Assembly (NCBI GenBank): GCA_035536915.1
Contig: DATLNE010000032.1
Coordinates: forward strand, 67,752-131,751
DNA: 64,000 nt
Origin: Acidimicrobiales bacterium
Lineage (GTDB): Bacteria > Actinomycetota > Acidimicrobiia > Acidimicrobiales > JAHWLA01
Reading direction: 5' to 3'
Below are positions 27,791 through 43,059 of the stretch, piece after piece; positions within the stretch are counted from its first letter, which is position 1; each line of letters starts with the position of its first letter. A program made the position numbers and the translations under genes. The notes under the pieces are model-generated. The model had not been told where the DNA came from, did not search any database, and saw only the letters and a list, made by a program, of their open reading frames with translations.

Positions 27791-28378
27791 TTACTCGGTG
27801 TCTTGGTCGAAGAAGGCTTCGTCGACGCCGGGTTGGGCGTCGTCGACGAAGCCGGTGCTGCGGCCCTGCTCGGGGCTGAGGGGGGCGGGGGTGACGCGGA
27901 GCTTGTCGCGGCCCGCCTGCACGGTCTTCGTCGTGCGCTCCAACACGATCTCGAACGCCGCGAGCTTCTGGTCGCAGTAGTCCTCGGCCTCGAGCTTGAG
28001 CCTGCGGGCCTCGTCGTCGGCCAGCTCGACCGTGCGCTTGGCCGTCTGCTGGGCCGAACGGACGATTTCGGTGCGCTGCACCATGCGTTCGGCCCGCACC
28101 CGTGCGGCCTCGAGGATCTCGTCGGCGTCGCGCTGGGTCTTGGCCAGGAACTCCTCACGCTCCTTGAGCATCCACCGGGCCTCCCGCAGCTCCTCGGGCA
28201 GCCGGTTCAACGCCTCTTCGAGCAGTTCGACGACCTCGTCCTTGCTGATGAGCACCGACGCCGACAACGGCATCGACTTGGCGTTGCCGATGATCTCGAC
28301 AACCCGCCGCAGCAGGGTCTCGGCGTCGATGTCGGCGGGCAACGCGGGTTGGCGGTCGAGGCTGTCGTAGTCACTCAT
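27791..28378 (-). CDS. sepIVA: SepIVA-like DivIVA-family coiled-coil protein
   Basis: 195 residues from ATG 28378, which overlaps the coaD stop by four bases. LLRRVVEIIGNAKSMPLSAS and ISKDEVVELLEEALNRLPEEL match the start of mycobacterial SepIVA (Rv2927c), and a long coiled coil with EAEDYCDQKLAAFEIVLERT completes it. SepIVA helps place septal and polar growth. The neighbourhood (coaD, rsmD, rnc region) is the same as in Mycobacterium. It is shorter than the mycobacterial form. The much longer open frame around it is spurious. Confidence 0.82.
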   Translation of the reverse strand: MSDYDSLDRQPALPADIDAETLLRRVVEIIGNAKSMPLSASVLISKDEVVELLEEALNRLPEELREARWMLKEREEFLAKTQRDADEILEAARVRAERMVQRTEIVRSAQQTAKRTVELADDEARRLKLEAEDYCDQKLAAFEIVLERTTKTVQAGRDKLRVTPAPLSPEQGRSTGFVDDAQPGVDEAFFDQDTE

Positions 28379-28863
28379 GAAGAGGTGAACTTCTCCTGGA
28401 GGCGCTTGGCCACCGGTTCGGGGACCATCGAGCTGATGCGATCGGCCCCGCCGTAGCGGGCGATCTGGCGCACCAGGTTCGAGGCGATGAACGAGTGCGA
28501 CGACGCGCACGGGATGAACAGCGTGTCGATGCCGGAGATGGCGTGGTTCATCTGCGCCTGCTGGAGCTCGTGCTCGAAGTCGGACGCCACCCGCAGCCCC
28601 TTGATGAGGACGTCGGCCCCCACCTGTCGGGCCAGGTCGACGACCAGGCTGCCGAACTGCTCCACCCGCACGTTGGGCAGGTGCGAGATCGAGTCCTCGA
28701 TCATCTGCTTGCGCTCCTCGTAGGAGAAGAGCGGTTCGCCCTTCTGCGGGTTGCGCATGGCGGCCACGACGACGTGGTCGAAGTGCAGGGCAGCCGTCTC
28801 GATGATCTCCAGATGGCCGTTGTGGATGGGGTCGAAGGAACCCGGGAACAGGGCCGTCCTCAC
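28375..28863 (-). CDS. coaD: Phosphopantetheine adenylyltransferase
   Basis: 162 residues. FPGSFDPIHNGHLEII carries the nucleotidyltransferase HXGH-type motif (HNGH). AMRNPQKGEPLFSYEER, GLRVASDFEHELQQAQMNH and FIPCASSHSFIASNLVR complete PPAT. It makes dephospho-CoA, the fourth step of coenzyme A synthesis. Overlaps rsmD and the sepIVA-like gene by four bases on either side. Confidence 0.96.
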   Translation of the reverse strand: MRTALFPGSFDPIHNGHLEIIETAALHFDHVVVAAMRNPQKGEPLFSYEERKQMIEDSISHLPNVRVEQFGSLVVDLARQVGADVLIKGLRVASDFEHELQQAQMNHAISGIDTLFIPCASSHSFIASNLVRQIARYGGADRISSMVPEPVAKRLQEKFTSS

Positions 28864-29399
28864 CGGAGGTCGCCCGGGCTGTCGAGTGCAGTGTGTGCCA
28901 CGTGGACCACGGTACTGCCGTACCGCTTACACCTGAGAAGTTCCCACCGCCCCCCGAGGTCGAGTTCCCGGTTCGACTCCGCCACCAACAACTGCGCCCG
29001 CACCCGCTCGAACACCACCGGCCACTGCTCGAAGGCGTACGGCGGGTCGGCGAAGGCAACCTCGAACGGCCCCGCCGTCTCCAGCCACCGCACCACGTCG
29101 AGGCGCACGACCTTGCCCCGCTCGGCCAGTCCGAGGGCGTCGAGGTTCTCCTGCACCAAGGCCGCGGCCGACCGGTCGCGCTCCACGAACACGGCCGACG
29201 CCGCCCCCCGCGAGAGCGCCTCGATCCCCAGCGCACCGGTGCCTGCGAACAGGTCGACCACGGTGGCGTCGTCGACCCCGCCCAGGGTGTCGACCATGTT
29301 GAACACCGCCTCGCGCACCCGGTCGCTGGTGGGCCGGATGTCGTGGCCCTTGGGGGACCGCAGGGCACGACCCCGCTCCGAACCGCCAACCACGCGCAT
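28860..29399 (-). CDS. rsmD: 16S rRNA (guanine966-N2)-methyltransferase RsmD
   Basis: 179 residues from ATG 29399. RVVGGSERGRALRSP, RPTSDRVREAVFNMV, the SAM motif VDLFAGTGALGIEALSRGA and the catalytic DPPY are all present. It modifies G966 of 16S rRNA. The frame stays open 56 codons upstream but those overlap the divergent thioesterase. It forms a tight rsmD-coaD-sepIVA operon. Confidence 0.95.
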   Translation of the reverse strand: MRVVGGSERGRALRSPKGHDIRPTSDRVREAVFNMVDTLGGVDDATVVDLFAGTGALGIEALSRGAASAVFVERDRSAAALVQENLDALGLAERGKVVRLDVVRWLETAGPFEVAFADPPYAFEQWPVVFERVRAQLLVAESNRELDLGGRWELLRCKRYGSTVVHVAHTALDSPGDLR

Positions 29400-29409
29400 G
29401 GGGGCACGG

Positions 29410-29415
29410 TAGTTT
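29410..29415 (+). promoter_or_regulatory. -10 box TAGTTT of leaderless thioesterase operon
   Basis: TAGTTT ends eight bases before the GTG at 29424, in the 24-base gap between divergent rsmD and the thioesterase. Confidence 0.42.
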
Positions 29416-29423
29416 CGCCCGTC

Positions 29424-29825
29424 GTGTCGTTCGAAGACGTAGCCGGCGAAGGCATCACCGGCGAGGACCCGCTCGGGCTGGGGCTGCGCTTCTGGCGCGT
29501 CGGTGACCGCCTCGTGGCCCGCTTCCAGCCGAGGGCCGAGCACCGCGGCCCGCCCGGCTTCGTGCACGGAGGCATGGCCGCCGCCGTGCTCGACGAGGTC
29601 ATGGCCTCGCTCGGCTGGGCCCTCGACAAGACGCCGTGCGTGACGGCCAAGCTCGAGCTCCGGTACCGCAAGGGCGTGCCCCTCGACGGCGGCCCGGTGC
29701 GCGTGGAGGCATGGCGGGAGCGGCTCGAATCGCGCCGCACCCAGAAGGTCAGCGGCCGCATCCTGCTGGCCGACGGCTCGGTGGCGGTCGAAGCCACCGG
29801 CCTGTTCGTGCAGGTACGCCCGTGA
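29424..29825 (+). CDS. Hotdog-fold thioesterase (PaaI/4HBT family)
   Basis: 133 residues from GTG 29424. The hotdog helix HRGPPGFVHGGMAAAVLDEV carries the HGG motif of PaaI-type thioesterases, and KLELRYRKGVPL is the following strand. These hydrolyse acyl- or aryl-CoA. Its TGA overlaps the GTG of the next small gene, starting a run of four coupled plus-strand genes. Confidence 0.87.
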   Translation: MSFEDVAGEGITGEDPLGLGLRFWRVGDRLVARFQPRAEHRGPPGFVHGGMAAAVLDEVMASLGWALDKTPCVTAKLELRYRKGVPLDGGPVRVEAWRERLESRRTQKVSGRILLADGSVAVEATGLFVQVRP

Positions 29826-29983
29826 CCGACAACGGAAACGAGCACGAGGCGCCCGAGGTCATCGACTGCGTCGACTGCGGCGGCCGCTGCCACCTCCTCA
29901 ACTTCTACGACGGCCTGGCCACCTACCGGTGCGAGGACTGCCGCGACCGCTGGGATGTGCTGTTCGAGGCAGAACGGGAATAG
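29822..29983 (+). CDS. Small zinc-ribbon protein
   Basis: 53 residues from GTG 29822 (GTGA overlap with the thioesterase stop). Two Cys pairs, CVDCGGRCHLL and CEDCRDRWDVLFE, make a probable zinc ribbon. Function unknown. It precedes the TIGR02587-like membrane gene by seven bases. Confidence 0.7.
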   Translation: MTDNGNEHEAPEVIDCVDCGGRCHLLNFYDGLATYRCEDCRDRWDVLFEAERE

Positions 29984-29990
29984 ACGGCCC

Positions 29991-30890
29991 GTGCCTGCCG
30001 CCACCTCCACTGCCTCCGAAGCCGACGCCGACGCCGACGCCGGCCCGTGGCGCCAGGAGGCCACCGACCTGGTGCGCGCCGTCTCCGGCGGCATGCTCTT
30101 CGGCATCCCGCTCCTCTACACGATGGAGGTGTGGTGGATCGGGAGCGAGACGCAGACGCCCCGCATGGTCGGCGTCCTGCTGTTCATGTTCGTGCCGGTC
30201 TTCCTGCTCACCCGCACCGCCGGGTTCCGCACCACCAAGGACATCCGCTGGCGCGACGCCGTGATCGACTCCGTGGAGACGGTGGCCATCGCCGTGGTCA
30301 GCGTCTTCCTGCTGCTCGTCCTGCTGCGGGAGATCACCATGGCCACGCCGCTTGAAGAGGCCCTGGGCAAGATCGTCTACGAAGCCACGCCGTTCGCCAT
30401 CGGCAGCGCTATCGCCCAGCACGTGCTGCGCCGGGGCCGGGCCGAGGGCGACGACGACAGCGGCGGCAACGACACGGCCGACGACGAAGGGCTGCACGCC
30501 ACCGTGGTCGACGTGGGGGCCACCACCATCGGCGCCGTGTTCGTGGCCTTCAACGTGGCGCCCACCGACGAGATCCCCATGCTGGCCGCAGCTATGCCCG
30601 CTGCCTGGCTCATCGCCATGATGGGAGCCTCGCTGGTGATCTCGTACTGCATCGTGTTCGTGGCCGGCTTCTCCGACCAGAAACGGCGCCACAGCCAACC
30701 GGGCATCCTCCAGCACCCCATCACCGAGACGGTGGCGTCGTACCTCATCTCGCTGGTGGTGGCGGGCGGGATGCTGTGGTTCTTCCAGCGCCTCGCCACC
30801 GAGAACCCGACCTCGGTGACGCTCTCCCACGTGATCGTGCTCGGGCTCCCGGCCGCGGTAGGCGGCGCAGCAGGAAGGTTGGCGGCATGA
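29991..30890 (+). CDS. TIGR02587-like multi-spanning membrane protein
   Basis: 299 residues from GTG 29991. About seven membrane helices are visible, including VGVLLFMFVPVFLLT, VETVAIAVVSVFLLLVLL, TIGAVFVAFNVAPTDE, AAWLIAMMGASLVISYCIVFVAGF and SYLISLVVAGGMLWFF. The pattern and the small partner next door recall the TIGR02587/TIGR02588 pair; this is recognition by pattern, not by search. No function is established for the family. Its stop overlaps the next ATG. Confidence 0.72.
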   Translation: MPAATSTASEADADADAGPWRQEATDLVRAVSGGMLFGIPLLYTMEVWWIGSETQTPRMVGVLLFMFVPVFLLTRTAGFRTTKDIRWRDAVIDSVETVAIAVVSVFLLLVLLREITMATPLEEALGKIVYEATPFAIGSAIAQHVLRRGRAEGDDDSGGNDTADDEGLHATVVDVGATTIGAVFVAFNVAPTDEIPMLAAAMPAAWLIAMMGASLVISYCIVFVAGFSDQKRRHSQPGILQHPITETVASYLISLVVAGGMLWFFQRLATENPTSVTLSHVIVLGLPAAVGGAAGRLAA

Positions 30891-31291
30891 GCGGCAAGAA
30901 GAGCGACAAGAAGCAGGAAGAGGGGCGCAGCGCCGCCGAGTGGGCGACGTTCGCCGTCTCCGTCCTCATCCTGCTGGTGCTCGTGGGGCTCATCGCCAAA
31001 GAAGCGGGAGAACCTGATCGGCCTGCGTTGCCCGAGGTGGTCGAGACAGGGCCGGTCGAGCGCCACGGCGAGCGCTTCCTCGTGCCCGTAGTGATCCGCA
31101 ACACAGGCGGCGCAACGGCCGAGAGCGTGCAGATCGTGGCCGAGCTCACCATCGGCGCCGAGGTGACCGAGGCCGACCAGACAGTGGAGTTCCTGGCCCG
31201 CGACGAATCGGCGGAGGTGGCCTTCGTGTTCGACGAGGACCCGGCGGGTGGCACATTGGACGTCCGCGTCGTCGGCTTTACGGTGCCTTGA
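30887..31291 (+). CDS. TIGR02588-like membrane-anchored partner protein
   Basis: 134 residues. A charged head, one membrane helix (WATFAVSVLILLVLVGLIA) and an external beta-rich domain (VVIRNTGGATAESVQIVAEL) are seen. It overlaps the TIGR02587-like gene by four bases and probably forms a complex with it. Its last 14 bases overlap the convergent cysteine-tailed gene at 31278-31291. Confidence 0.7.
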   Translation: MSGKKSDKKQEEGRSAAEWATFAVSVLILLVLVGLIAKEAGEPDRPALPEVVETGPVERHGERFLVPVVIRNTGGATAESVQIVAELTIGAEVTEADQTVEFLARDESAEVAFVFDEDPAGGTLDVRVVGFTVP

Positions 31292-32108
31292 CGCAACACT
31301 CGCAGCACCGGCAGCACCGGCAGCACCGGCAGCACCCGCACCCGCAGCACCCGCACTCGATCAGGAGGCGACGCACCGGCAGCGGCCGGCGTCGCACCAC
31401 GATGAACTCCTCGCGGGCAAAGAGGCGCACGTCGTCGCCGACGGTGTCCCAACCGAGGTCTGGGGCGTCAACCGTCTCGACCACGACTTCGCCGCCATGA
31501 TGCGGCAGGAGCCACGCTTGTCCGACGGTGAGGTGCGACAGGGGGATGATCGCACCGCCGTTGAGGGCCTCCTTTACCTTCTTGCCAACCGACCCGACCA
31601 GTCGCGACAGCGTCGCCGGACTCACCACCAAGTCGAGCGTCAATCGGCGGAGGTGTTGCCGCGCATTTCCGATCACATCGGGGAGCGTGGCAAGCGTGGC
31701 CGATGTCTCAGGCGCGGCAGGGTCGAAGGCGGCCTCGACGTCCCGGGCCAGCACCAGCGCCGCCGCTTGCGCTGAACGAATGGCCCACTCCTCGACCTGC
31801 GGAGAGGTTTGCGGGTCGAGCGTGTCGAGCGTGTCGCGGTCGAGCAGTACCTCGGTCTCGACCGTTCTCGATCCGACGACGGCGGCTGTGACCTCCTTGA
31901 CAGACACCCCGCTGGGCAGGCCCGGGACGTGCAGGTCGGATAGCGCCAGGTCACCCACCCGTACGCGACCCGCCGACGGATCCGCCGTGACCCCCTCGAA
32001 CACGTCGAAAAGCGAACGCCACCGCGGCTCCAGCTTCGCCACATCCTCGAGTCGCTTCCTGATCTCAGGCAGGGCCTGGTCCATCTTCCGATCGCGGTCA
32101 GTCGGCAT
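31278..32108 (-). CDS. Possible HK97/encapsulin-like protein with cysteine-rich C-terminal tail
   Basis: 276 residues, not confidently recognised. Order of elements: N-terminal charged helix, a strand-rich region (LALSDLHVPGLPSG), a long helix ending LVLARDVEAAF, then LTLDLVVSPATLSRLVG, GAIIPLSHLTVGQAWLLPHHGG and FAREEFIVVRRR. This order recalls encapsulin and phage HK97 capsid proteins (spine helix, P domain, late A-domain strand); the fold call is inference. The last 26 residues hold 14 Cys (ECGCCGCGCCRCCRCC and beyond), coded by nine-base repeats. It overlaps its upstream partner by 11 bases and the convergent TIGR02588-like gene by 14. Confidence 0.7.
   Translation of the reverse strand: MPTDRDRKMDQALPEIRKRLEDVAKLEPRWRSLFDVFEGVTADPSAGRVRVGDLALSDLHVPGLPSGVSVKEVTAAVVGSRTVETEVLLDRDTLDTLDPQTSPQVEEWAIRSAQAAALVLARDVEAAFDPAAPETSATLATLPDVIGNARQHLRRLTLDLVVSPATLSRLVGSVGKKVKEALNGGAIIPLSHLTVGQAWLLPHHGGEVVVETVDAPDLGWDTVGDDVRLFAREEFIVVRRRPLPVRRLLIECGCCGCGCCRCCRCCRCCECCVKAP
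31302..31358 (-). repeat. Nine-base tandem repeat coding the cysteine tail
   Basis: Units of GCAGCACCG/GCAGCACCC on the plus strand (31302-31310, 31311-31319, 31320-31328, 31329-31337 and decayed units after) read CGGTGCTGC on the coding strand, giving Arg/Gly-Cys-Cys steps. Slippage expansion is the likely origin. Confidence 0.75.
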
Positions 32109-34635
32109 CAGTCTCCTGCTCCCTTGGTAGCGCTTCTACGAATGCTGTAAACCGGAGCAAGCGGTGCAGCGGCTCGAGGTCGGGGTCCTTCTCGACCCAC
32201 GCCCTGGTGAGCTGGTGGCTTCCGGGACGCTCGAGTGCCATCTCGAGGTGCTTCAGGGCATCCTCTGCCGCCTTCATCCCCTCGACGTCGGCCCTGATGG
32301 CGTCGTCGCAGGCCAGGTTGTAGGCCACCTGCCAGAACGTCCAAGGGTCTTTGAGGAGCGAGCGCTGGTCGCCTTTTGGGAAGTCGCCTTTTGGGAAGTC
32401 GCCTTTTGAGAGGACGCCTCGTCGTACTATGGCGGGCCGCGACGAAGCGATGGCCCGCATGAACTGCCGTCGGGCCGACACGCCCCCCGCTTCGGCGCGG
32501 AAGAAGGCCAGCCAGTACGACCGCTCGCTCCTGCACAAGGCGCTGAAGCACACGCGGAACAGGCCCAGCCGCTGATCGATGTCGCGCAACTCGGCCAGGG
32601 CGAACGTGCACAGCGCCTTCTTCGCGTCGGGGGCGTCCAACGCCGCGGCCAGCTTCTCCCCGTGCGATAGGTAGCGCCTCAACATTGCCGTCACACGCTG
32701 GCGCTGGTGCGCTGGCCGTTCGACCCAGTTGGCATCCACATCGGACGCGAGCAGGCTGGCGGCCATGGCCAGCCGGTAGCGGGCGGCGACGTAGTGGCGG
32801 TTGACGGTCGCCGCTCGCAGGGCGAGCTCGAAAGCGTCCAGGTGTTGCCCTTCGAGCGCATAGGCATTCGACAGCCAAAGGCAAAGCAGGCCGTTGCCGG
32901 GAGCCTTGGCCACCGCCTGCTCCATGAGCTTCACCGGGGGCTTTTCGCCCTTGTCGTCGTCGGCGTGATAGGCGGCCAGGGCATCGGAGCTGTCGGCGGG
33001 CCACTGAGCCCAATGGGGCACGCGATCCGAGCGTGCCAGCACGACGGTTGCCGCCCAGTAGGCCGCCTTGCGCAGGGCTTCGGCGGGCGCGTTGTCGTGC
33101 ACCAGGCGCTGGTGGACGACCTCCTTGGTGCGGCGGTCGGTGACGCGCACGGCGATGGTGGTGGGCGTCGCGCCGGGGACGGTGGGCGGTGTCTCGGCGG
33201 CGGCCGGGGTAGGCGTCGCGGCAGGGGCGGTAGCCGGCGTACCGGTGGGCACGGTGCGGTAGGTGACCGTGTAGCCACGCTTCTCCCCGAGCGCGACAGC
33301 GACAGCAGCGACAAGCTTGCCGATCGCGTTCCCGGCCGGGACCTTGGTGGCATCGAGCAATTCGGCGACGGGCACGAGAGCGGCCGCACCGGGCACGGCG
33401 CCGGGAGCAGGGACGTTGCGGAGCACGTAGGTCCTGAACAGTTCGTCCTCGGGTCCGGGCTCGTTTTCCTTGATCGGCTGTACCACGACCGGGCCCAACG
33501 CCTTTCGCGCCGCCCGGCGTTCGAGCGCCACGTAAGTGAGCACGGAGAGCGCGGCCAGGAGGAGCCACCCGACCACGCCGGGATCGACGGGCACCTGATC
33601 CGCCTCTTCGCCGTCGCCGCCGATCCACGGGAGCTCGCCGAGAAGGACACCGCCGCCCGCACGGACGGCGGCGACGGCGTCCACGTCCTCGACGCCCCGG
33701 CCGCGCCGCCCGGCCGCCGCGGCTCGCTTGTCGAGCTTCTCCTCGAGGTCCTTCTCCGCCGCCTCTTTCGCCTTGTCGGTGGCGAGGGCGTGCTCGTAGC
33801 GAGCAACTTCGACCTCGGCGCCGGCGCCGAGGAGTTCGAGCTCGGCGAGGAGGACCGAGCATGTCGAGTCGGCCAGGCAGCGCGGTGCTGCCCCGTCGAG
33901 GTGCATCGCTCCGCCCGCCGCCTTGCACAGCTGGTCGACAGCTTCTTCGGCCTCCTTCGGTGAGGCAGGCGCAGGGGCGGGTTTCGGCAACACGGCGGCC
34001 TCGACGGCTGCCACCGCAGCCTCGGCAGCGCCACGGAGCGCACCGAGGTCGAGGGCCTTCACCCGCCGGCGCTGCTCCGCCAACCGCGCCGACGCCGACG
34101 GGCCTGCCAGGAGGGCGCGAAGGTCGGCCTCCAAGGAACGGAGGCTGTCGATGGCCGGCCCCGGCGGGGCAACGGCAAGCAGCCGGCCCAGTTCGGCGAG
34201 GGCGTCGGGAGCTGGTGCGGCCCCTCCCCCCGTGGCCCGCGCGGGGTCGGCCGCCTTCGAGGCGGCGAGCAGCTTCGTCCGCAACTCACCGGCCGTCTCA
34301 CGCGCCGAGGCCGCACGCTCACGGCCGATCGCCCCGCGGCCCACGTCGATCAGCCCCACGGCCACGACTACCAAGCTGGCCACGAGGAAGATGCGCACAA
34401 GCCCGACGGCGTATCTCGTGGAAGCCAGGAGGGCGACGATCGCCACCCCCAGTACCAGCAAGCCCAGGCCCCGCCCGTCGGGCTCGCCGCAGAGGACATA
34501 GGCCGTTCCCCCGGCCACCAGGCCGGCCATGCCGGCCAGCACGGCGGCGTTCAGGAGGCGCCCGTCGGACGAGACCGCTCGCCGAGCCGCGGCAACTGCG
34601 CCCCCTTGGCTCTGGAACCACGCCTCAACGCTCAC
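32098..34635 (-). CDS. Large multi-spanning membrane protein with helical-repeat C-terminus, unknown
   Basis: 845 residues. Three membrane helices lie in the first 110 residues (AAVLAGMAGLVAGGTAYVL, LGLLVLGVAIVALLAS, LVRIFLVASLVVVAVGLI). An Ala/Glu-rich coiled region to about 330 follows, then a fourth helix (VGWLLLAALSVLTYVAL), a Thr/Pro linker near 480-510, and a helical TPR-like cytoplasmic part (LWLSNAYALEGQHLDAFELAL, LKHLEMALERPG). SKGDFPKGDFPKGD near residue 745 is coded by a 15-base triplicate repeat. It is the first gene of a two-gene operon with the cysteine-tailed protein. No homolog is recognised; a scaffold or sensor role is a guess. Confidence 0.75.
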   Translation of the reverse strand: MSVEAWFQSQGGAVAAARRAVSSDGRLLNAAVLAGMAGLVAGGTAYVLCGEPDGRGLGLLVLGVAIVALLASTRYAVGLVRIFLVASLVVVAVGLIDVGRGAIGRERAASARETAGELRTKLLAASKAADPARATGGGAAPAPDALAELGRLLAVAPPGPAIDSLRSLEADLRALLAGPSASARLAEQRRRVKALDLGALRGAAEAAVAAVEAAVLPKPAPAPASPKEAEEAVDQLCKAAGGAMHLDGAAPRCLADSTCSVLLAELELLGAGAEVEVARYEHALATDKAKEAAEKDLEEKLDKRAAAAGRRGRGVEDVDAVAAVRAGGGVLLGELPWIGGDGEEADQVPVDPGVVGWLLLAALSVLTYVALERRAARKALGPVVVQPIKENEPGPEDELFRTYVLRNVPAPGAVPGAAALVPVAELLDATKVPAGNAIGKLVAAVAVALGEKRGYTVTYRTVPTGTPATAPAATPTPAAAETPPTVPGATPTTIAVRVTDRRTKEVVHQRLVHDNAPAEALRKAAYWAATVVLARSDRVPHWAQWPADSSDALAAYHADDDKGEKPPVKLMEQAVAKAPGNGLLCLWLSNAYALEGQHLDAFELALRAATVNRHYVAARYRLAMAASLLASDVDANWVERPAHQRQRVTAMLRRYLSHGEKLAAALDAPDAKKALCTFALAELRDIDQRLGLFRVCFSALCRSERSYWLAFFRAEAGGVSARRQFMRAIASSRPAIVRRGVLSKGDFPKGDFPKGDQRSLLKDPWTFWQVAYNLACDDAIRADVEGMKAAEDALKHLEMALERPGSHQLTRAWVEKDPDLEPLHRLLRFTAFVEALPREQETDAD
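32369..32413 (-). repeat. 15-base tandem repeat, three units, inside the 845-residue gene
   Basis: TCGCCTTTTGGGAAG at 32369-32383 and 32384-32398, with a decayed third unit to 32413. It encodes the KGDFP repeats in frame. Confidence 0.8.
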
Positions 34636-34760
34636 GAGAACACGCCTTGCGCGTTACACACCATCCGCCCCCCCTGTTGCACTGCAGACGATACGTGCCG
34701 CCTGCCCGACCGTCTCTAGCGCGTGCGGGCCATTCTCAGGCCACCGATGTGCCTAGTCCG

Positions 34761-34766
34761 TAGGAT
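34761..34766 (+). promoter_or_regulatory. -10 box TAGGAT of leaderless esterase
   Basis: TAGGAT ends six bases before the GTG at 34773. It lies in the 137-base divergent gap after the 845-residue gene's start, where nothing else is evident. Confidence 0.45.
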
Positions 34767-34772
34767 GCGAAG

Positions 34773-35666
34773 GTGCCGTTGAGCCCTGACGCCCAAGTCG
34801 TGTTCGACCGGCTGGCGCAGGCCGGCAACCTCACGATCGAAGACCTCGGCCTCGACGTGTTGCGCACACTGTTGGCCAACTTCAACCGCATCGACAGCGA
34901 CGGGCCCGAGGTCCCCACCGAGGACGCCACCGCAGACGGCGTGCCCGTGCGGCTGTACCGGCCCGACGACGCGGTCGGCACGCTGGTGTGGTTCCACGGC
35001 GGCGGGTGGTGCCTGGGGAGCATGGACGAGCACGACGCCTTCTGCCGCCGCTTTGCCGTGGCGGCAGGCACGACGATCGTCAACGTCGACTACCGCCTCG
35101 CCCCGGAACATCCTTTCCCTGCCGGGTTCGACGACTGCTACGCGGCCACCAAGTGGGCGGCCGCCACATTGCCGGGGCCCACCGCCGTCGGGGGCGACAG
35201 CGCGGGCGGCAACCTGGCCGCGGCCGTGACCTTCAAAGCGCGAGACGACGGCCCTCCCCTGGCCTTCCAACTGCTCGTCTATCCCGCGGTCGACGCCGAG
35301 ATGAGCTACCCCTCGATGAAGGAGAACGGGGAGGGGTACTTTCTCTACGAAGCAGACACCCGCTGGTTCTGGGACCACTACCTGGCGGGCCACGACCGCC
35401 GCGACCCGTTGGCATCGCCGATCTACGCGGACGACCTCGGTGGCCTGCCGCCCGCCTACGTGGTCACTACCGAGTACGACCCCCTGCGCGACGAAGGCGA
35501 GGCCTACGCCTTGCGGCTGGAGCAGGCGGGCGTTCCCACGTTGCGTCGTCGCTGGGACGGCGAACTGCACGCCTTCTTCACCGCGGGCAAGGTCTACGCA
35601 GCGGCGCAACCCGCCACAGAGGAGGCCGCCGCCGCCCTCCGGGCTGCACTGCGCGGCACCGGTTAG
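34773..35666 (+). CDS. Alpha/beta hydrolase, HSL-type esterase
   Basis: 297 residues. The oxyanion hole HGGGW, the nucleophile elbow GDSAGGN, the acid in EYDPLRDEGEAY and the His in GELHAFF make a complete hormone-sensitive-lipase family triad. NVDYRLAPEHPFPAGFDD is a further family marker. These hydrolyse short-chain esters. No signal peptide, so cytoplasmic. Its stop overlaps the convergent permease gene by four bases. Confidence 0.92.
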   Translation: MPLSPDAQVVFDRLAQAGNLTIEDLGLDVLRTLLANFNRIDSDGPEVPTEDATADGVPVRLYRPDDAVGTLVWFHGGGWCLGSMDEHDAFCRRFAVAAGTTIVNVDYRLAPEHPFPAGFDDCYAATKWAAATLPGPTAVGGDSAGGNLAAAVTFKARDDGPPLAFQLLVYPAVDAEMSYPSMKENGEGYFLYEADTRWFWDHYLAGHDRRDPLASPIYADDLGGLPPAYVVTTEYDPLRDEGEAYALRLEQAGVPTLRRRWDGELHAFFTAGKVYAAAQPATEEAAAALRAALRGTG

Positions 35667-36532
35667 GCCCGGCGACCCTCGGCGGCCACCGTGGCCAGGT
35701 CTTCGACGCCGGCCACGTCCATGGCCCCTGCGTTGTAGCGGCGGCGCTGGCGCACTTCCAAGCGACGGGCGACCTGGCTCAGGGCGAAGTTCACCACGAC
35801 ATAGAAGGCGGCCACGAAGACCAGCGACTGCAGCATGTTCCCGTAGAACTCGCCGCTGAGCCGGCCCCGGCGCAACAGTTCCTCGTAGGTGATCACGTAG
35901 CCCAACGAGGTGTCCTTCAGCAGGGTCACCAACTGGCTCACGATGGCGGGCACCATGCGGCGTACGGCTTGGGGCACGATCACGGTGAACATGGCCTGCC
36001 AGTACGACAGGCCGATGGCGTAGGCGGCTTCGGACTGGCCCCGGTCGAGCGACAGGATGCCCGCCCGGAAGATCTCGGCCACCACGGCGCCGTTGTAGGC
36101 CACCAGGGCCAGCACCAGGTACCAGAACACCGGGAGCTGGATGCCGTACTTGGGCAGGCCCAGCCCCGAGAAGTAGATGAGCAGCAGCAGGGGCATGGCC
36201 CGGAAGAACTCGACCCACGCGCCCGCCGCCCATCGCACCGGCTTGTTGCGGGCCAGGCGCCCGAGGGCCAGGAAGGTGGCCAGGACCAAGGCCAACCCCA
36301 TGGCCACCATCGCCGCCTTCATGGTGTTGGCCAGCCCTGTGAGGAAGAAGCGGATGACCGAGCGCTGGGTCAGCGGCTTCCACAGCGCTTCGTCGAACTG
36401 GTTGCGGTCGGCGAGGCGCTGAACGGCGACGCCGATGACGGCGGCCACCAGCACGGCGGCGACGATCGAGGCGATCCACACCCGGCGGCGGGCCTTGGGG
36501 CCGAGGGCGTCGGCCAGCACGGTGGCGGTCAT
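35663..36532 (-). CDS. Polar amino-acid ABC transporter permease (second subunit)
   Basis: 289 residues from ATG 36532. Membrane helices surround the HisMQ-type cytoplasmic loop GQSEAAYAIGLSYWQAMFTVIVPQAVR, which contacts the ATPase. LTGLANTMKAAMVAMGLALV begins the domain. Upstream neighbours are the other permease (4-base overlap), a binding lipoprotein and an ATPase, an order like gluA-B-C-D of Corynebacterium. The substrate, probably an acidic amino acid or its amide, is inferred from that order. Confidence 0.93.
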   Translation of the reverse strand: MTATVLADALGPKARRRVWIASIVAAVLVAAVIGVAVQRLADRNQFDEALWKPLTQRSVIRFFLTGLANTMKAAMVAMGLALVLATFLALGRLARNKPVRWAAGAWVEFFRAMPLLLLIYFSGLGLPKYGIQLPVFWYLVLALVAYNGAVVAEIFRAGILSLDRGQSEAAYAIGLSYWQAMFTVIVPQAVRRMVPAIVSQLVTLLKDTSLGYVITYEELLRRGRLSGEFYGNMLQSLVFVAAFYVVVNFALSQVARRLEVRQRRRYNAGAMDVAGVEDLATVAAEGRRA

Positions 36533-37131
36533 CGTTTGATCGCCACCCGGCGCTCGACGATGCCGATGCCCCACCCCAGCGGCAGGGTCAACGTGAGATA
36601 GGCAGCGGCCGCTCCCAAGAACACCGGGATGGGCCGGGCGGTAGCGGTGTTGAGGCGGTCGGCTACCTCGGTGAGCTCCAACACGGAGATGACTGAGGCC
36701 ACCGACGAGTTGCGCACCAAGGCGCTGAGCAGGCTGCCCAGCGGCGCCACCACGGTGCGAAAGGCCTGCGGCAGCACCACGATGGTGAGCACCTGCGGGA
36801 AGGTGAGCCCGAGGGAACGGGCCGCTTCGGCCTGGCCCGTCGACACCGCGTTGATGCCGGAGCGAATGGTCTCGGCCACGAACGAACTCGTGTACATGCT
36901 GAGCACGATCACCGCGGTGACGAACGCCTCGTAGCGGATGCCGACCTTGGTGAGGCCGAAGTAGAAGAGGATGAAGTGGACGGCCAGCGGCGTGTTGCGC
37001 ACCAGCTCCACATACGTCGCCCCCGCCCATCGCAGCGGGGGAACGGGCCCGACCCGGAACGCGGCGACCACGGTGCCGATCACCACTGCCGCCGCGAACG
37101 ACAGCAGGGTAAGCGACACCGTGGTCCGCAT
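36529..37131 (-). CDS. Polar amino-acid ABC transporter permease (first subunit)
   Basis: About 200 residues from ATG 37131. TTVSLTLLSFAAAVVIGTVVA, ELVRNTPLAVHFILFYF and the coupling loop GQAEAARSLGLTFPQVLTIVVLPQAFR are the HisMQ permease. The start is uncertain: homologous sequence (FDNLGTYVEG) continues upstream to about 37174, where only CTG is available after the stop of the binding protein, and no ATG, GTG or TTG is found between. A CTG or coupled non-canonical start is possible. Confidence 0.88.
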   Translation of the reverse strand: MRTTVSLTLLSFAAAVVIGTVVAAFRVGPVPPLRWAGATYVELVRNTPLAVHFILFYFGLTKVGIRYEAFVTAVIVLSMYTSSFVAETIRSGINAVSTGQAEAARSLGLTFPQVLTIVVLPQAFRTVVAPLGSLLSALVRNSSVASVISVLELTEVADRLNTATARPIPVFLGAAAAYLTLTLPLGWGIGIVERRVAIKR

Positions 37132-37177
37132 CCCCTCGACGTAGGTGCCGAGGTTGTCGAAGACGATGTTCAGGGCG

Positions 37178-38209
37178 TTACCGCGTGGTACTGGTGGTCG
37201 ACGACGACGCGGACGACGAGCTCGTCGACGAGGACGTACCGCCCGAGCCGCCCGCCGTGGTCGACGTGCTGCTGCCGGTCGAGCCACCCGTGGTGGCGTA
37301 GCGGTCGATGCTCGGCGGCCGCGGCGTGTCGAGCCCCAGCTTGCCCAGCGTCCGCTCGAAAGCGGCAGCCCACTGGCCGTTGCGGAAGATCTCCTCCAAC
37401 CGGTCGTTGAGGAAGTCGCGGAAGGCCTGGTCGCCCTTCTTGAGGCCCACGCCGTAGGGCTCGTCGCTGAACGGCGCCTTGACCAGCTTGTAGGCGTTGT
37501 TCGACTGCGAGACCAAGCCGGCCAGGATGGTGTTGTCGGTGGTCACCGCCACCACTCGCCCGTCGCCGAGGGCTTCGGCGCACTGCGAGTAGGTGTCGAA
37601 CAGCGTGACCTCGGCGGTGGGCGCCTTGGCCCGCACGTTCTTCTCCGAGGTCGAGCCCTTGACCGTGCAGACCTTCTTGCCCGCCAGGTCGGTGACGCTC
37701 TTGATGGCATTGTCGCCGGCCTTGACCATCAGGTCCTGCTGGGCCACGAAGTACGGCCCGGCGAAGTCGACCACCTGCTTGCGGGTGTCGTTGATGGTGT
37801 AGGTGGCGATCACCAGGTCGACGCGGCCTTCTTGGATGAAGGGCTCACGGTTCTTCGACACCGCTTCGACGAACTCGATGTTCGCTTCCTGCCCGTCGAG
37901 GCGGCCGCCGTAGATGCCCTGGGCGATCAGCTTGCCGATCTCGACGTCGAAGCCCTCGATCTTGCCGGTGGTCGGGTTCTTCTGGCCGAACCCGGGCTGG
38001 TCGAACTTCACGCCGATTGTGATCTTGCCGTCGGACTGCAAGCTCGCCATGGTGCTGCCCGAGGCAAAGCTCGGACGGGCGACCTCGTCGCCGCCCTTGT
38101 CGTCTGTCGGGTTTGTAACCGCACCGCCGTCGTCGTCGTCACCGCATGCTGCACCGGTGAGGGCGACGACGAGCAACAGGGCGATGGTCCACCAACGCCG
38201 TCTCGTCAT
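37178..38209 (-). CDS. Amino-acid ABC transporter substrate-binding lipoprotein
   Basis: 343 residues from ATG 38209, preceded by AAGGAGATACAGGT. The lipobox is LTGAAC at residues about 18-23, so the protein is anchored outside the membrane. Solute-binding family 3 segments are GKIEGFDVEIGKLIAQGIYG, DLVIATYTINDTRKQVVDFAGPYF, VCTVKGST and GVGLKKGDQAFRDFLN. The C-terminal 40 residues are a Ser/Thr/Gly tail of low complexity, not part of the fold. Operon with the ATPase upstream and permeases downstream. Confidence 0.94.
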   Translation of the reverse strand: MTRRRWWTIALLLVVALTGAACGDDDDGGAVTNPTDDKGGDEVARPSFASGSTMASLQSDGKITIGVKFDQPGFGQKNPTTGKIEGFDVEIGKLIAQGIYGGRLDGQEANIEFVEAVSKNREPFIQEGRVDLVIATYTINDTRKQVVDFAGPYFVAQQDLMVKAGDNAIKSVTDLAGKKVCTVKGSTSEKNVRAKAPTAEVTLFDTYSQCAEALGDGRVVAVTTDNTILAGLVSQSNNAYKLVKAPFSDEPYGVGLKKGDQAFRDFLNDRLEEIFRNGQWAAAFERTLGKLGLDTPRPPSIDRYATTGGSTGSSTSTTAGGSGGTSSSTSSSSASSSTTSTTR

Positions 38210-38225
38210 ACCTGTATCTCCTTTG

Positions 38226-38966
38226 TCAATGGCTGAGGATCTTCGAGAGGAAGTCGCGAGCCCGTTCCGTCTTGGCCTGCGCGAAGAACTCTTCGGGCGG
38301 CGACATTTCAAGTACCTGTCCGCCGTCCATGAACACCACTTGTTGGGCCGCCGACCGGGCGAAGCCCATCTCGTGGCTGACCACGATCATCGTCTTGCCC
38401 TCTGACGCCAGCTCCAACATGACGTCGAGGACCTCCTTGATCATCTCGGGGTCGAGGGCCGAGGTGGGCTCGTCGAACATGAGGACCTTGGGCTCCATGG
38501 CCAGCGCCCGGGCGATGGCCGCCCGCTGCTGCTGCCCGCCGGAGAGCTCGGCCGGGTAGCGGTCGGCCTTGTCGGCGATGCCGACCCGCTCCAGCAGTTG
38601 CATGGCCCGTTCCTTGGCCTCTTTCTTCGACAACCCCCGCACCTTTGTGGGGCCGAGGGTGACGTTGGCGAGCACGCTCTTGTGGGCGAAGAGGTTGAAC
38701 GACTGGAACACCATGCCCACGTCGGCCCGCAGCTTGGCCAGGGCCTTGCCTTCCTCGGGCAGGGCAACGCCGTCGATGGTGATGGTGCCGCTGTCGATGG
38801 GCTCCAGCCGGTTGATGCACCGGCACAGCGTCGACTTGCCCGAGCCCGACGGGCCGACCACGACGACGACGTCGCCACGGTTGACGACGAGGTCGACGTC
38901 CTTCAGGACGTGGAGGTCACCAAAGGACTTGTTGACTTTCTCGACGACGACAAGCGGGCTCCCCAT
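38226..38966 (-). CDS. glnQ: Polar amino-acid ABC transporter ATPase
   Basis: 246 residues. Walker A GPSGSGKSTLCRCIN, Q-loop MVFQSFNLFAH, signature LSGGQQQRAAIARALAM, Walker B VLMFDEPTSALDPEM and switch His in VVSHEMGFAR. It powers amino-acid import and is first in a four-gene operon, 16 bases before the binding-protein gene. The family is GlnQ/GluA-like. Confidence 0.95.
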   Translation of the reverse strand: MGSPLVVVEKVNKSFGDLHVLKDVDLVVNRGDVVVVVGPSGSGKSTLCRCINRLEPIDSGTITIDGVALPEEGKALAKLRADVGMVFQSFNLFAHKSVLANVTLGPTKVRGLSKKEAKERAMQLLERVGIADKADRYPAELSGGQQQRAAIARALAMEPKVLMFDEPTSALDPEMIKEVLDVMLELASEGKTMIVVSHEMGFARSAAQQVVFMDGGQVLEMSPPEEFFAQAKTERARDFLSKILSH

Positions 38967-39005
38967 TCGCCGCGGACCCTACCCCGTTCGAGGGCCGTCG
39001 CATCG

Positions 39006-41105
39006 TCAGGACTTGAAGAGGAAGTCTTCTTCGTCGGCGTCCACCAGGGCGCGCACCTCCTCGGCCAGCACCGGGTGCTGCTCCAAGAAGGGGTCGCCGT
39101 CGACCACCCGGAAGGCCAGTTCGCGGGCCTGGACCACCATCTGCTTGTCGCGCCGGAGCGACGCCAGCTTGAGGTCGGAACGGCCTTTCTGGCGAGCGCC
39201 CCGAATCGTGCCCGCCCCTCGTAGGTCGAGGTCGACCTCCGCCAGCTCGAAGCCGTCGGTGGTGCGTTCGACGGCGGCCAGGCGCTCGCTCTCGGCGTCG
39301 CCCAGGAGGTAGCACCAACTGCGGGCCGACCCCCGGCCGACCCGGCCCCGGAGCTGGTGGAGCTGGGCGATGCCGAAGCGGTCGGCGTCCTCGATGACCA
39401 TGACGGTGGCGTTGGGCACGTCGACGCCGACCTCGATGACGGTGGTGGCCACCAGCACGTCGACCTCGCCTCGGCGGAAGGCGGCCATCACCGGTTCCTT
39501 GTCGGCCGGGCGCATCTGCCCGTGCAGCAGGCCGAGGCGCAGGTCGGCCAGCACCTCGGTGCGCAGCCGCTCGTATTCCTCGATGGCCGACTTGGCCTGC
39601 ACCCGCTCGGACTCATCGACCAATGGGCACACCACGTACGCCTGGCGGCCCGCGGCCACCTCCTCCTTGACCCGGCTCCAGGCCTCGGCCTCCTCCAGCG
39701 GCCCCCGGGCCCACACGGTGGTGATCGCGGTGCGGCCGGGCGGGAGCTCGTCGAGCACGGTCATGTCGAGGTCGCCGTAGACGGTCATGGCCGCCGTGCG
39801 CGGGATCGGCGTGGCCGTCATCACCAGCACGTCGGGGTCGTCGCCCTTGCCCCGCAAGGCGGCCCGCTGCTCCACGCCGAAACGGTGCTGCTCGTCGATG
39901 ACCACCAGGCCGAGGCGCTTGAAGGCGACCTGTTCGGTGAGCAGGGCATGGGTGCCGATGAGGATGTCGACCTGCCCGGCTGTCAACGCCGCGTGCAGCT
40001 TGGTGCGTTCCGACGCCGTAGTGCGGTTGGTGAGGAGCTCGACCCGCAGCGGCCGTTCCTCGAACAACGACCCGCCCGCGTCGGGCACGGTGAGGTCGGC
40101 CAGCAGGGCGCGCACGGCGACGTGGTGCTGTTCGGCCAGCACTTCGGTGGGGGCCATGAAGGCGCCTTGGTGGCCGCCCTGCACGGCGGTGAGCAGCGCG
40201 CTTACCGCCACCACGGTCTTGCCAGAACCCACGTCGCCTTGGAGGAGGCGGTGCATGGGGTGCGGCCCCGCCATGTCGGCTTCGACCTCTGCGATGGCCC
40301 GCCGCTGGGCGTTGGTGAGCGGGAACGGGAGGCGCTGGTGGAAGCGGGGCACCAGTTCGCCTTCGACGGTGTGGCGGATGCCCTTCGACTCCCGCTCCAA
40401 GGCCCGCTTGCGCAGCACGAGGGTCATCTGCAGGCGGAACAGTTCGTCGAAAGCCAGGCGGCGGCGCGCGGCGTAGGCGGCGTCGAGCGACTCGGGCTGA
40501 TGGATTTGGGAGAAGGCCCAGGTGCGATCGGCCAGGTCGAACTCGTCATTGGCCGCGGCGGGGAGCGGGTCGGCGAAGTCGCCCGCCCGGGCCAAGGCCT
40601 CCTCCACCCACGCCGCGACCTCCCACGTGACCAGGCCCGCCTTCTCCGACTGCGGGTACATGGGCACGATGCGGCCGGTACGGTCGCCGATGAGGTCGAC
40701 GAGCGGGTTGGCCATCTGGCGGCGGCCCTTGTAGACGTCGAGCTTGCCGAAGAAGACCGCGGTGGTGCCGACCGGCAGTTGCTTGGCCCGCCACGACTGG
40801 TTGAAGAACGTGCAGCGCAGGTAGGCGGTGCCGTCGTAGACCTCGACCTCGGCGATGGCCCGGCCCTGGCGGCTGCGGCGGGCGCTGCTGCGCTTGACCT
40901 CGGCCACGACCATGGCCTCCTCCCCCACGGCCAGCTCGCCGATGGCCACCTGCGCGGTGCGGTCGACGTAGCGCCGCGGGTAGTGGGTGAGCAGGTCGTA
41001 GACCGTCTCGATGCCCACCTCTTTGAGGGCGTCGGCCCGCTTGGCTCCCACCCCGCGCAACTCGGTGACAGCGATGTTGGCCAGCTGCTGCAGGCTCCTC
41101 GCCAC
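39006..41105 (-). CDS. recG: ATP-dependent DNA helicase RecG
   Basis: 699 residues. The N-terminal wedge/OB domain (LTHYPRRYVDRT, GRAIAEVEVYDGTAYLRCTFF) precedes helicase motifs: Walker A LLQGDVGSGKTVVA, GTHALLTEQV, DEQHRFGVEQR, TATPIPRT, ATTVIEVGVDVPNATVM and HQLRGRVGRG. RecG reverses stalled forks and branches Holliday junctions. It lies downstream of the DAK2 gene, with a perfect 23-base inverted repeat between them. Confidence 0.96.
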   Translation of the reverse strand: MARSLQQLANIAVTELRGVGAKRADALKEVGIETVYDLLTHYPRRYVDRTAQVAIGELAVGEEAMVVAEVKRSSARRSRQGRAIAEVEVYDGTAYLRCTFFNQSWRAKQLPVGTTAVFFGKLDVYKGRRQMANPLVDLIGDRTGRIVPMYPQSEKAGLVTWEVAAWVEEALARAGDFADPLPAAANDEFDLADRTWAFSQIHQPESLDAAYAARRRLAFDELFRLQMTLVLRKRALERESKGIRHTVEGELVPRFHQRLPFPLTNAQRRAIAEVEADMAGPHPMHRLLQGDVGSGKTVVAVSALLTAVQGGHQGAFMAPTEVLAEQHHVAVRALLADLTVPDAGGSLFEERPLRVELLTNRTTASERTKLHAALTAGQVDILIGTHALLTEQVAFKRLGLVVIDEQHRFGVEQRAALRGKGDDPDVLVMTATPIPRTAAMTVYGDLDMTVLDELPPGRTAITTVWARGPLEEAEAWSRVKEEVAAGRQAYVVCPLVDESERVQAKSAIEEYERLRTEVLADLRLGLLHGQMRPADKEPVMAAFRRGEVDVLVATTVIEVGVDVPNATVMVIEDADRFGIAQLHQLRGRVGRGSARSWCYLLGDAESERLAAVERTTDGFELAEVDLDLRGAGTIRGARQKGRSDLKLASLRRDKQMVVQARELAFRVVDGDPFLEQHPVLAEEVRALVDADEEDFLFKS

Positions 41106-41118
41106 GGCCGGCTACCCG

Positions 41119-41168
41119 GTTCTGGTCCGGGAATCCGGCGCCACCGCGCCGGATTCCCGGACCAGAAC
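41119..41168. repeat. Perfect 23-base inverted repeat between DAK2 gene and recG
   Basis: Arms 41119-41141 and 41146-41168 match without error around a four-base CACC loop. It would form a very stable hairpin. No T tract follows on the minus strand, so simple intrinsic termination is doubtful. It could be a terminator, a dispersed palindromic element, or an attenuator before recG. Confidence 0.85.
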
Positions 41169-41181
41169 GGTCAGGTGGGGC

Positions 41182-42804
41182 TCACTCAATGCTGAACAGG
41201 TAGGGGTAGAGCGGCTGGCCGCCGTGGTGCACCTCGAAGGTCACGTCGGGGCGGTGCTCACGGAGCCACTCGGTGATGCGCCGGGTGTCGGCGGCCGACG
41301 ACCCCTCGCCTTCGATCACGGAGACGATCTCGTGGTCGTCGCCGATGAGGTGGTCGAGCAGGCTGGTGGCGGCCTCGGCCAACGTCGGTGCCACCGACTC
41401 GATGCGCTTGCTCGACAACCCCAGCCAGTCGCCTTCTGTGATCTCGCCGGAGTCGCGCACGGCCCGGGTGACCTCGCCGCTGACCACCCGTCCGGCGGCC
41501 TCGCCCATCGACGTGGCGTTGGCCTCGGCGGTGGCCTCGGGGTCGTACTCCAGCAAGGCGGCGAAGCCCTGGGCGATCCCCGTGGTGGGCACCACCGACA
41601 CCGGCTTGGAGGCCAGGGGGGCCACCTGCTCGGCCACCGGGATGATGTTCTTGTTGTTGGGCAGGATCACCACCTGCTCCCCCGGTGCCGCCTCGACCGC
41701 TTCGAGGATCTGGGCCGTCGAGGGGTTCATCGACTGGCCGCCCGCCACCACCTTCTGCACCCCGAGCGAGTGGAAGATGCGCCGGATCCCCTCGCCCGTG
41801 CCGACCGCCACCACTGCGGTGGGCACCGGATCGTGCGCGGGTTCTTCGACGGGCACGGCCGCGGCCTCGCGCACCCAGCGCTCCTCCTCCACCTGCTCGT
41901 GGAGGTCGGTGACCCGAATGTTGCGGGGCCGCCCGCAGTCCATGGCCGCTTCGATGGAAGCGCCGATGTCGTCGGTGTGGATGTGGCAGTTCCAGATGCC
42001 GTCGCCGCCGACCACCACGATGGAGTCGCCGATGCCCGCCCACACGTCCTTGAACGCCGGGATCGTCTCGTCGGGCGCTTCGAGGAAATACATGACCTCG
42101 TAGCGCAGGTCGCTGTCGCCGTCGTGCATCGGCGCCGCCGGCGCCGACGAGTCGACGAGGCCGGTGACGGCGGGCGCCTCGGGCAGCGGGCGGCCCGCCA
42201 CCACGTGGAGGAAGGCGTCGAGCAGGAGCAGGAAGCCCGCGCCGCCTGCGTCGACCACGCCAGCCTGCTTCAGCACGGGCAGCAGTTCCGGCGTGTTGTC
42301 GAGCGCGACCTGCCCCCCCTTCTTGGCGGCGTCGAGCACGTCGACCAAGGCGGCCCCGCCGTCGGCCGCGGCATGGGCGGCAGCGGCCGCTTCCTTGACG
42401 ACGGTGAGGATGGTGCCCTCGACCGGGCGCATCACCGCCTCGTAGGCCGCGGTCGAGGCGTTGCCCAGGGCGGCGGCCACGTCGGCGGCGCCCGCGGCGT
42501 CGACCCCCTTGCACCCGTCAGCCAGCGCCCGCAGGATCTGCGACAGGATCACCCCGGAGTTGCCCCGGGCGCCCATCAGTGCCCCGTGGCTGATGGCCTT
42601 GCAGGTCGACACCATGTCGTCGGCCGCCGCGCACTCCTTGACGACCTCCTCCAAGGTGAGGGCCATGTTGGTGCCGGTGTCGCCGTCGGGGACGGGGTAG
42701 ACGTTGAGCCGGTTGACGGCGTCCTGGTGGGCCCGCAAGGCGTCGCGGTAGCCGGTCACCACATCGCGCAGGTGCCCCGCTGCCAGCCGCTCGAGCGTCT
42801 CCAT
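41182..42804 (-). CDS. DAK2-domain fatty-acid-kinase-like protein (YloV/FakA type)
   Basis: 540 residues from ATG 42804; the frame extends upstream but the family begins LERLAAGHLRDVV. The DAK2 nucleotide site is NVYPVPDGDTGTNMALTL with GARGNSGVILSQIL and DAGGAGFLLLLDAF. Two further domains follow, ending in the DegV-like segment EVHHGGQPLYPYLFSIE. In Firmicutes FakA phosphorylates fatty acids held by a DegV-type FakB protein. No separate DegV gene is in view. Placement next to recG and rpmB is conserved in many bacteria. Confidence 0.92.
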   Translation of the reverse strand: METLERLAAGHLRDVVTGYRDALRAHQDAVNRLNVYPVPDGDTGTNMALTLEEVVKECAAADDMVSTCKAISHGALMGARGNSGVILSQILRALADGCKGVDAAGAADVAAALGNASTAAYEAVMRPVEGTILTVVKEAAAAAHAAADGGAALVDVLDAAKKGGQVALDNTPELLPVLKQAGVVDAGGAGFLLLLDAFLHVVAGRPLPEAPAVTGLVDSSAPAAPMHDGDSDLRYEVMYFLEAPDETIPAFKDVWAGIGDSIVVVGGDGIWNCHIHTDDIGASIEAAMDCGRPRNIRVTDLHEQVEEERWVREAAAVPVEEPAHDPVPTAVVAVGTGEGIRRIFHSLGVQKVVAGGQSMNPSTAQILEAVEAAPGEQVVILPNNKNIIPVAEQVAPLASKPVSVVPTTGIAQGFAALLEYDPEATAEANATSMGEAAGRVVSGEVTRAVRDSGEITEGDWLGLSSKRIESVAPTLAEAATSLLDHLIGDDHEIVSVIEGEGSSAADTRRITEWLREHRPDVTFEVHHGGQPLYPYLFSIE

Positions 42805-42864
42805 GTGGGGGGATGCTAACCTGCACCGGTTCCCCGGCAGTCCCCCTACAGGAGCGTGCGCGTC

Positions 42865-43059
42865 ATGGCAGCGGTGTGCGAGGTATGCGGCAAGCATCCC
42901 TCATTCGGCATGAGCATCAGCCACTCGCACCGGCGCACCAAGCGTCGGTGGAATCCCAACATCCAGCGGGTGCGCGCCATCGTCAACGGCGCCCCCAAGC
43001 GCATGCACGTCTGCACCTCGTGCATCCGGGCGGGCAAGATCCAGAAGGCGGCGCACTAA
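42865..43059 (+). CDS. rpmB: 50S ribosomal protein L28
   Basis: 64 residues from ATG 42865; an in-frame GTG nine bases earlier overlaps the ribosome-binding AGGAG and is rejected. [28 protein letters not shown]-type opening and [13 protein letters not shown] show the zinc-binding (C+) form. It is divergent from the DAK2 gene and ends seven bases before the convergent cyclic-nucleotide-binding gene. Confidence 0.96.

Follow-up and report, generated by a model that had tools for sequence, protein, structure and literature searches.

The described proteins nearest to the gene pair presented here are the Family 1 encapsulins (PF04454, Linocin_M18), the encapsulins of Families 3 and 4, and the proteins carrying the TPR_END_plus domain (NF047558). 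Family 4 A-domain encapsulins have MarC-like membrane genes alongside, and Family 3 encapsulins bear membrane extensions (PMC8346489). Membrane proteins that neighbour proteins of the encapsulin type, or are fused to them, thus have a published precedent in these two families; however, the membrane protein of our pair (P0002) belongs to the TPR proteins and is neither MarC nor MFS, and nothing ties it to these encapsulins. P0002 resembles TPR_END_plus proteins in that its C-terminus and all three of its relatives match this domain, but its 3+1 transmembrane helices and the large domain with cysteines that separates TM3 from TM4 fall outside the domain model. The small protein encoded next to it (P0001) has, over residues 139-245, an order of elements similar to that of Family 1 encapsulins, as read by eye and in end-to-end alignment, whereas it has no profile match, an N-terminal half that reaches only rank 25/300, an additional Cys tail and no recognised cargo gene. 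Both genes lie within the window, the whole 64,000-nucleotide stretch of DNA that was analysed, which belongs to a 3.2-Mb draft genome, probably actinobacterial judging by its genes and composition. The features of the locus are as follows.

32098..34635, minus strand: P0002, 845-aa predicted membrane TPR protein (GTG start; best-scoring frame of six; homologues in genomes G093, G291 and G137)
34348..34557, minus strand: three predicted N-terminal transmembrane helices of P0002, residues 27-45, 59-77 and 78-96 (Kyte-Doolittle peaks 1.61-2.62)
33595..34347, minus strand: Ala-rich domain of P0002, residues 97-347, with Cys 237, 253 and 259 (charge counts, Cys positions)
33520..33594, minus strand: predicted fourth transmembrane helix (TM4) of P0002, about residues 348-372 (hydropathy)
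32101..33519, minus strand: C-terminal domain of P0002, residues 373-845, conserved in an alignment of four proteins
32368..32419, minus strand: 15-bp tandem repeat of 3.5 copies, encoding KGDFP repeats inside P0002 (tandem-repeat scan)
32098..32108, minus strand: 11-nt overlap between the P0002 stop and the P0001 ATG (coordinates)
31278..32108, minus strand: P0001, 276-aa orphan protein (ATG start; best frame across the gene body)
31365..31694, minus strand: P0001 residues 139-248, weakly similar in co-linear fashion to Family 1 encapsulins over their C-terminal half (end-to-end alignment)
31293..31355, minus strand: Cys-rich tail of P0001, residues 252-272, CGCCGCGCCRCCRCCRCCECC (9-bp tandem repeat)

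P0001 and P0002 are genuine genes, P0001 being the more atypical of the two. A codon log-odds model trained on the genes of the window gave positive scores to both frames, 0.18 for P0002 and 0.07 for P0001 (the lowest among the genes compared), and negative scores to all tested ORFs overlapping them. Moreover, in sliding windows both frames came top of six across each gene body, the test being uninformative over the last ~80 bp of the P0001 gene, which are repeat. The two overlapping minus-strand genes claimed in an earlier note on this DNA are thus present as ORFs with coding character in both frames, and their 11-nt overlap points to translational coupling. At its 3' end, P0001 overlaps the end of a convergent plus-strand TIGR02588-like ORF by 14 nt.

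The second gene had been said to encode a large membrane protein with a helical-repeat domain, and this description held. Hydropathy gives 3+1 hydrophobic helices, residues 771-833 match TPR_END_plus with an E-value of 2.5e-5, at a score under the curated cut-off (24.1 vs 32 bits), and consensus-TPR structures are matched by the P0002 family profile (E 1.9e-8, whole chain). On these sequence matches, the helical-repeat domain is TPR. Within the C-terminal domain, the TPR is presumably preceded by a TolB-like alpha/beta part; the resemblance to TolB was recognised by eye, and the stretch gave no Pfam or PDB profile match. Four helices and the positive charge after TM4 would place both the N and C termini of P0002 in the cytoplasm, and the charge bias around TM4 would place residues 97-347 outside the cytoplasmic membrane, a topology that is predicted from hydropathy and charge.

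Together with its three relatives, P0002 forms a small, unnamed membrane TPR family. The relatives were found in the same taxonomic order, with pair E-values of 2.5e-19 in G093, 6.9e-25 in G291 and 9.0e-18 in G137. Since an order-wide search placed the P0002-type module in only 4 of 298 genomes, the module is rare in the order; in a class-level search with P0002 no more than two candidates were scored for each genome, which makes it a poor argument for absence. A genome scan run with the family alignment returned no loci. TPR_END_plus is matched in all four members, at scores below its curated cut-off. The 3+1 helix plan is common to P0002 and the relatives in G093 and G291, with TM4 in a conserved position and with cysteines in the TM3-TM4 region at 209 and 227 in G093 and at 174, 226, 356, 379, 383 and 390 in G291. 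The G137 relative is a multi-helix protein of 1877 aa that contains a GDSL-lipase domain and ends in the P0002-type module. This recurring helix plan and the Cys-bearing domain make the family worth a family model.

The genes that follow P0002 relatives are not the same from one genome to another. The G093 relative has a lipoprotein-like ORF downstream, the G291 relative an IS-like transposase that is encoded on the opposite strand near the contig end, and the G137 relative an overlapping 239-aa gene for which no similarity was detected. On co-occurrence, which the earlier note had proposed to check, the searches do not support a pair that travels together: the P0002 relatives of the order adjoin a detectable P0001 relative in 0 of 3 genomes, one of the contigs ending just downstream. 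Because P0002 relatives precede other genes, the pair is not conserved as far as visible, and of the claimed "unrecognised two-gene system" the unrecognised arrangement stands, and a conserved pair is not supported. The 239-aa gene looked by eye like a counterpart of P0001 and was rejected (Z 1.5, rank 19/201). As side observations, the GDSL-lipase/TPR-module protein is encoded at L069:2243-7876, and its end is overlapped by the 239-aa gene (L069:7849-8568), whose family was not recognised and which is likewise an orphan-like downstream partner. The gene directly after the G291 relative (L068:3277-3972, at the contig end) was read by eye as an IS-like transposase/integrase.

The reading that we prefer, at about even chances, is that P0002 is a membrane-anchored TPR scaffold or sensor and P0001 a soluble partner translated right after it. 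P0002 would be anchored in the membrane, its TPR module facing the cytoplasm; residues 97-347 would lie outside the membrane, possibly held by disulfides. Coupled translation would give the two proteins a fixed stoichiometry, and the putative cytosolic TPR domain might bind either P0001 or some other client in the cytosol, close to the membrane. The Cys tail of P0001 would have arisen by repeat expansion in this lineage and may bind metal or be neutral. The different genes found downstream of family members fit a P0002 family that would act as an adaptor, its clients being swapped between lineages; they fit just as well neighbours that have no functional link. P0002 could also be stand-alone, and P0001 a gene that arose recently or evolves fast and has an unrelated role.

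A different possibility, which we consider rather unlikely but which comes next in probability after the preferred reading, is that P0001 is a distant Family 1 encapsulin-like shell protein with an HK97 fold, and that P0002 tethers or loads the shell at the membrane. It arose from the order and spacing of the elements of P0001, read by eye. The libraries gave it no help: P0001 had no match in Pfam, PHROGs, NCBIfam or PDB, with no capsid pointer at any threshold, and PF04454 had no match over its cut-off anywhere in the genome. AlphaFold2, run from the single sequence with no alignment, gave a pLDDT of 37.2 for the whole of P0001 and 36.6 for residues 139-248, values too low to inform on the fold, and a PDB fold search with this low-confidence model (pLDDT ~37) returned a best E-value of 3.9, which is meaningless. 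Profiles were built from the same phylum, with 26 encapsulins (PF04454) and 17 HK97-type capsids (PF05065). In local hhalign comparisons with Family 1 encapsulins and PF05065 capsids P0001 stayed at null level, its capsid-profile score being 13.1 vs an average of 13.2 for null genes. This local negative has some weight against an encapsulin, because 77% of true encapsulins exceed the 95% line of the null in the same test.

End-to-end alignment told in the other direction for the C-terminal half. Against encapsulin C-halves, P0001 139-248 reached a mean Z of 1.73 in BLOSUM global alignment (rank 5/920 null segments) and a score of 13.06 with hhalign -glob, where the null was ~3.0 (rank 2/240); repeats of the latter gave ranks 3/300 and 1/300. 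The null consisted of unrelated genes of the same genome, and the draws overlap in genes and template and are not independent. The similarity of this half to Family 1 encapsulins is in about the top 1% of same-genome genes (p ~0.005-0.01), p-values that are optimistic given that the capsid hypothesis was chosen after reading the same sequence. With the same profile, the 17 phage capsids and one Family 2B encapsulin reached at best 8.35; P0001 scores above all of them, which favours the encapsulin-like reading, and since none of these true members reaches its score, the test cannot count as validated for detecting an HK97 fold. When the other half of P0001, the N-terminal one, was aligned end-to-end with encapsulins, it took the rank given above, and the C-half showed no similarity to phage capsids (rank 60/300). 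Two further results were set aside. Full-length P0001 ranked 1/202 in the global test, where the shuffled Cys tail depresses the shuffles, and fell to ~6/202 once trimmed; a home-made PSSM test (rank 97/240, no signal) was given zero weight, its gap and end settings being degenerate.

Taken at the level of sequence, the likeness of the P0001 C-half to Family 1 encapsulins is suggestive. It raises the odds of an encapsulin-like fold, and these odds stay below even because the hypothesis and the split at 139 were picked from the same sequence. For the capsid-like fold claimed for P0001 the picture is mixed: the end-to-end comparison of the C-half is suggestive in its favour, and the local profile scores and the libraries count against it. 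The gene neighbourhood also counts against it: known encapsulin cargo enzymes were absent from the scanned neighbours, which are transport, lipase and housekeeping genes. If P0001 had an HK97 fold, it would represent a further lineage of capsid-derived cellular proteins past the reach of sequence searches, and would suggest a membrane-attached shell. If it had not, it would serve as a warning that an order of elements judged by eye can look like that of a capsid.

Less probable again, and in our view doubtful, is that P0001 shares no stable fold with capsids and is a lineage-specific gene, young or evolving fast, a chance neighbour of P0002 whose Cys tail is an artefact of 9-bp minisatellite slippage. 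The searches for relatives are in agreement with it. P0001 had none in 298 genomes of the order or in 395 of the class, none in one other genome from its family (same genus, 76% complete), and none in viral contigs, phages or plasmids, the genome-contig and viral scans having used exact peptide patterns, which are insensitive. Weak class-level matches were judged to be chance after re-alignment. P0001 is an orphan, without a relative in any collection searched. Its coding score, the lowest of those compared, and its absence beside P0002 relatives point the same way, but its frame is clearly preferred over the gene body and its overlap with P0002 suggests coupled translation, both of which count against this reading.

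The tail itself, a tandem repeat, also favours a young gene. P0001 contains exactly 14 Cys, as had been counted before, all of them within residues 252-272 (in the last 25 residues) and none in residues 1-251. TRF reported a repeat at 31302-31355 with a period of 9 and 6.3 copies, which encodes this tail. A CC-x-CC-x-CC codon pattern has four matches in the genome; three are overlapping matches within the P0001 tail and one is at another site. Repeat slippage would suffice as the origin of the tail. The KGDFP-encoding 15-bp array of P0002 is a second recent-looking repeat expansion in the gene pair. The C terminus of an encapsulin faces the exterior of the shell; if P0001 formed a shell, its Cys tail would therefore cover the outer surface. 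In the most elaborate version of that idea, which we regard as improbable, P0001 would be a highly diverged encapsulin-type shell protein whose thiol-rich tail lies on the exterior, and its co-translated TPR protein would tether it to the membrane, making a new family of membrane-linked compartments with a coat of metal or thiols.

The surroundings of the pair agree with the earlier statement that no phage genes are nearby: none occurred among the scanned neighbours, which are housekeeping, transport and lipase genes and the TIGR02587/TIGR02588 pair. Likewise, no PADLOC family of anti-phage defence was matched up to E 1. On one side, the block holding P0001 and P0002 is flanked by rsmD-like and coaD-like genes (28375-29567) and on the other by recG/fakA-like genes (39006-42897); between the flanks lie TIGR02587/TIGR02588, P0001/P0002, a LipP1-type lipase and an amino-acid-type ABC transporter of four genes. 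The plus-strand genes at 29955-31291 encode a TIGR02587 membrane protein followed by a TIGR02588-like protein, whose match is slightly under the cut-off (85.5 vs 95 bits), and no mention of TIGR02587, TIGR02588 or DUF2391 was found in the literature searched. The interval 29567-39006 is a block of unrelated genes between the rsmD/coaD-like and recG/fakA-like genes and is perhaps a variable insertion site.
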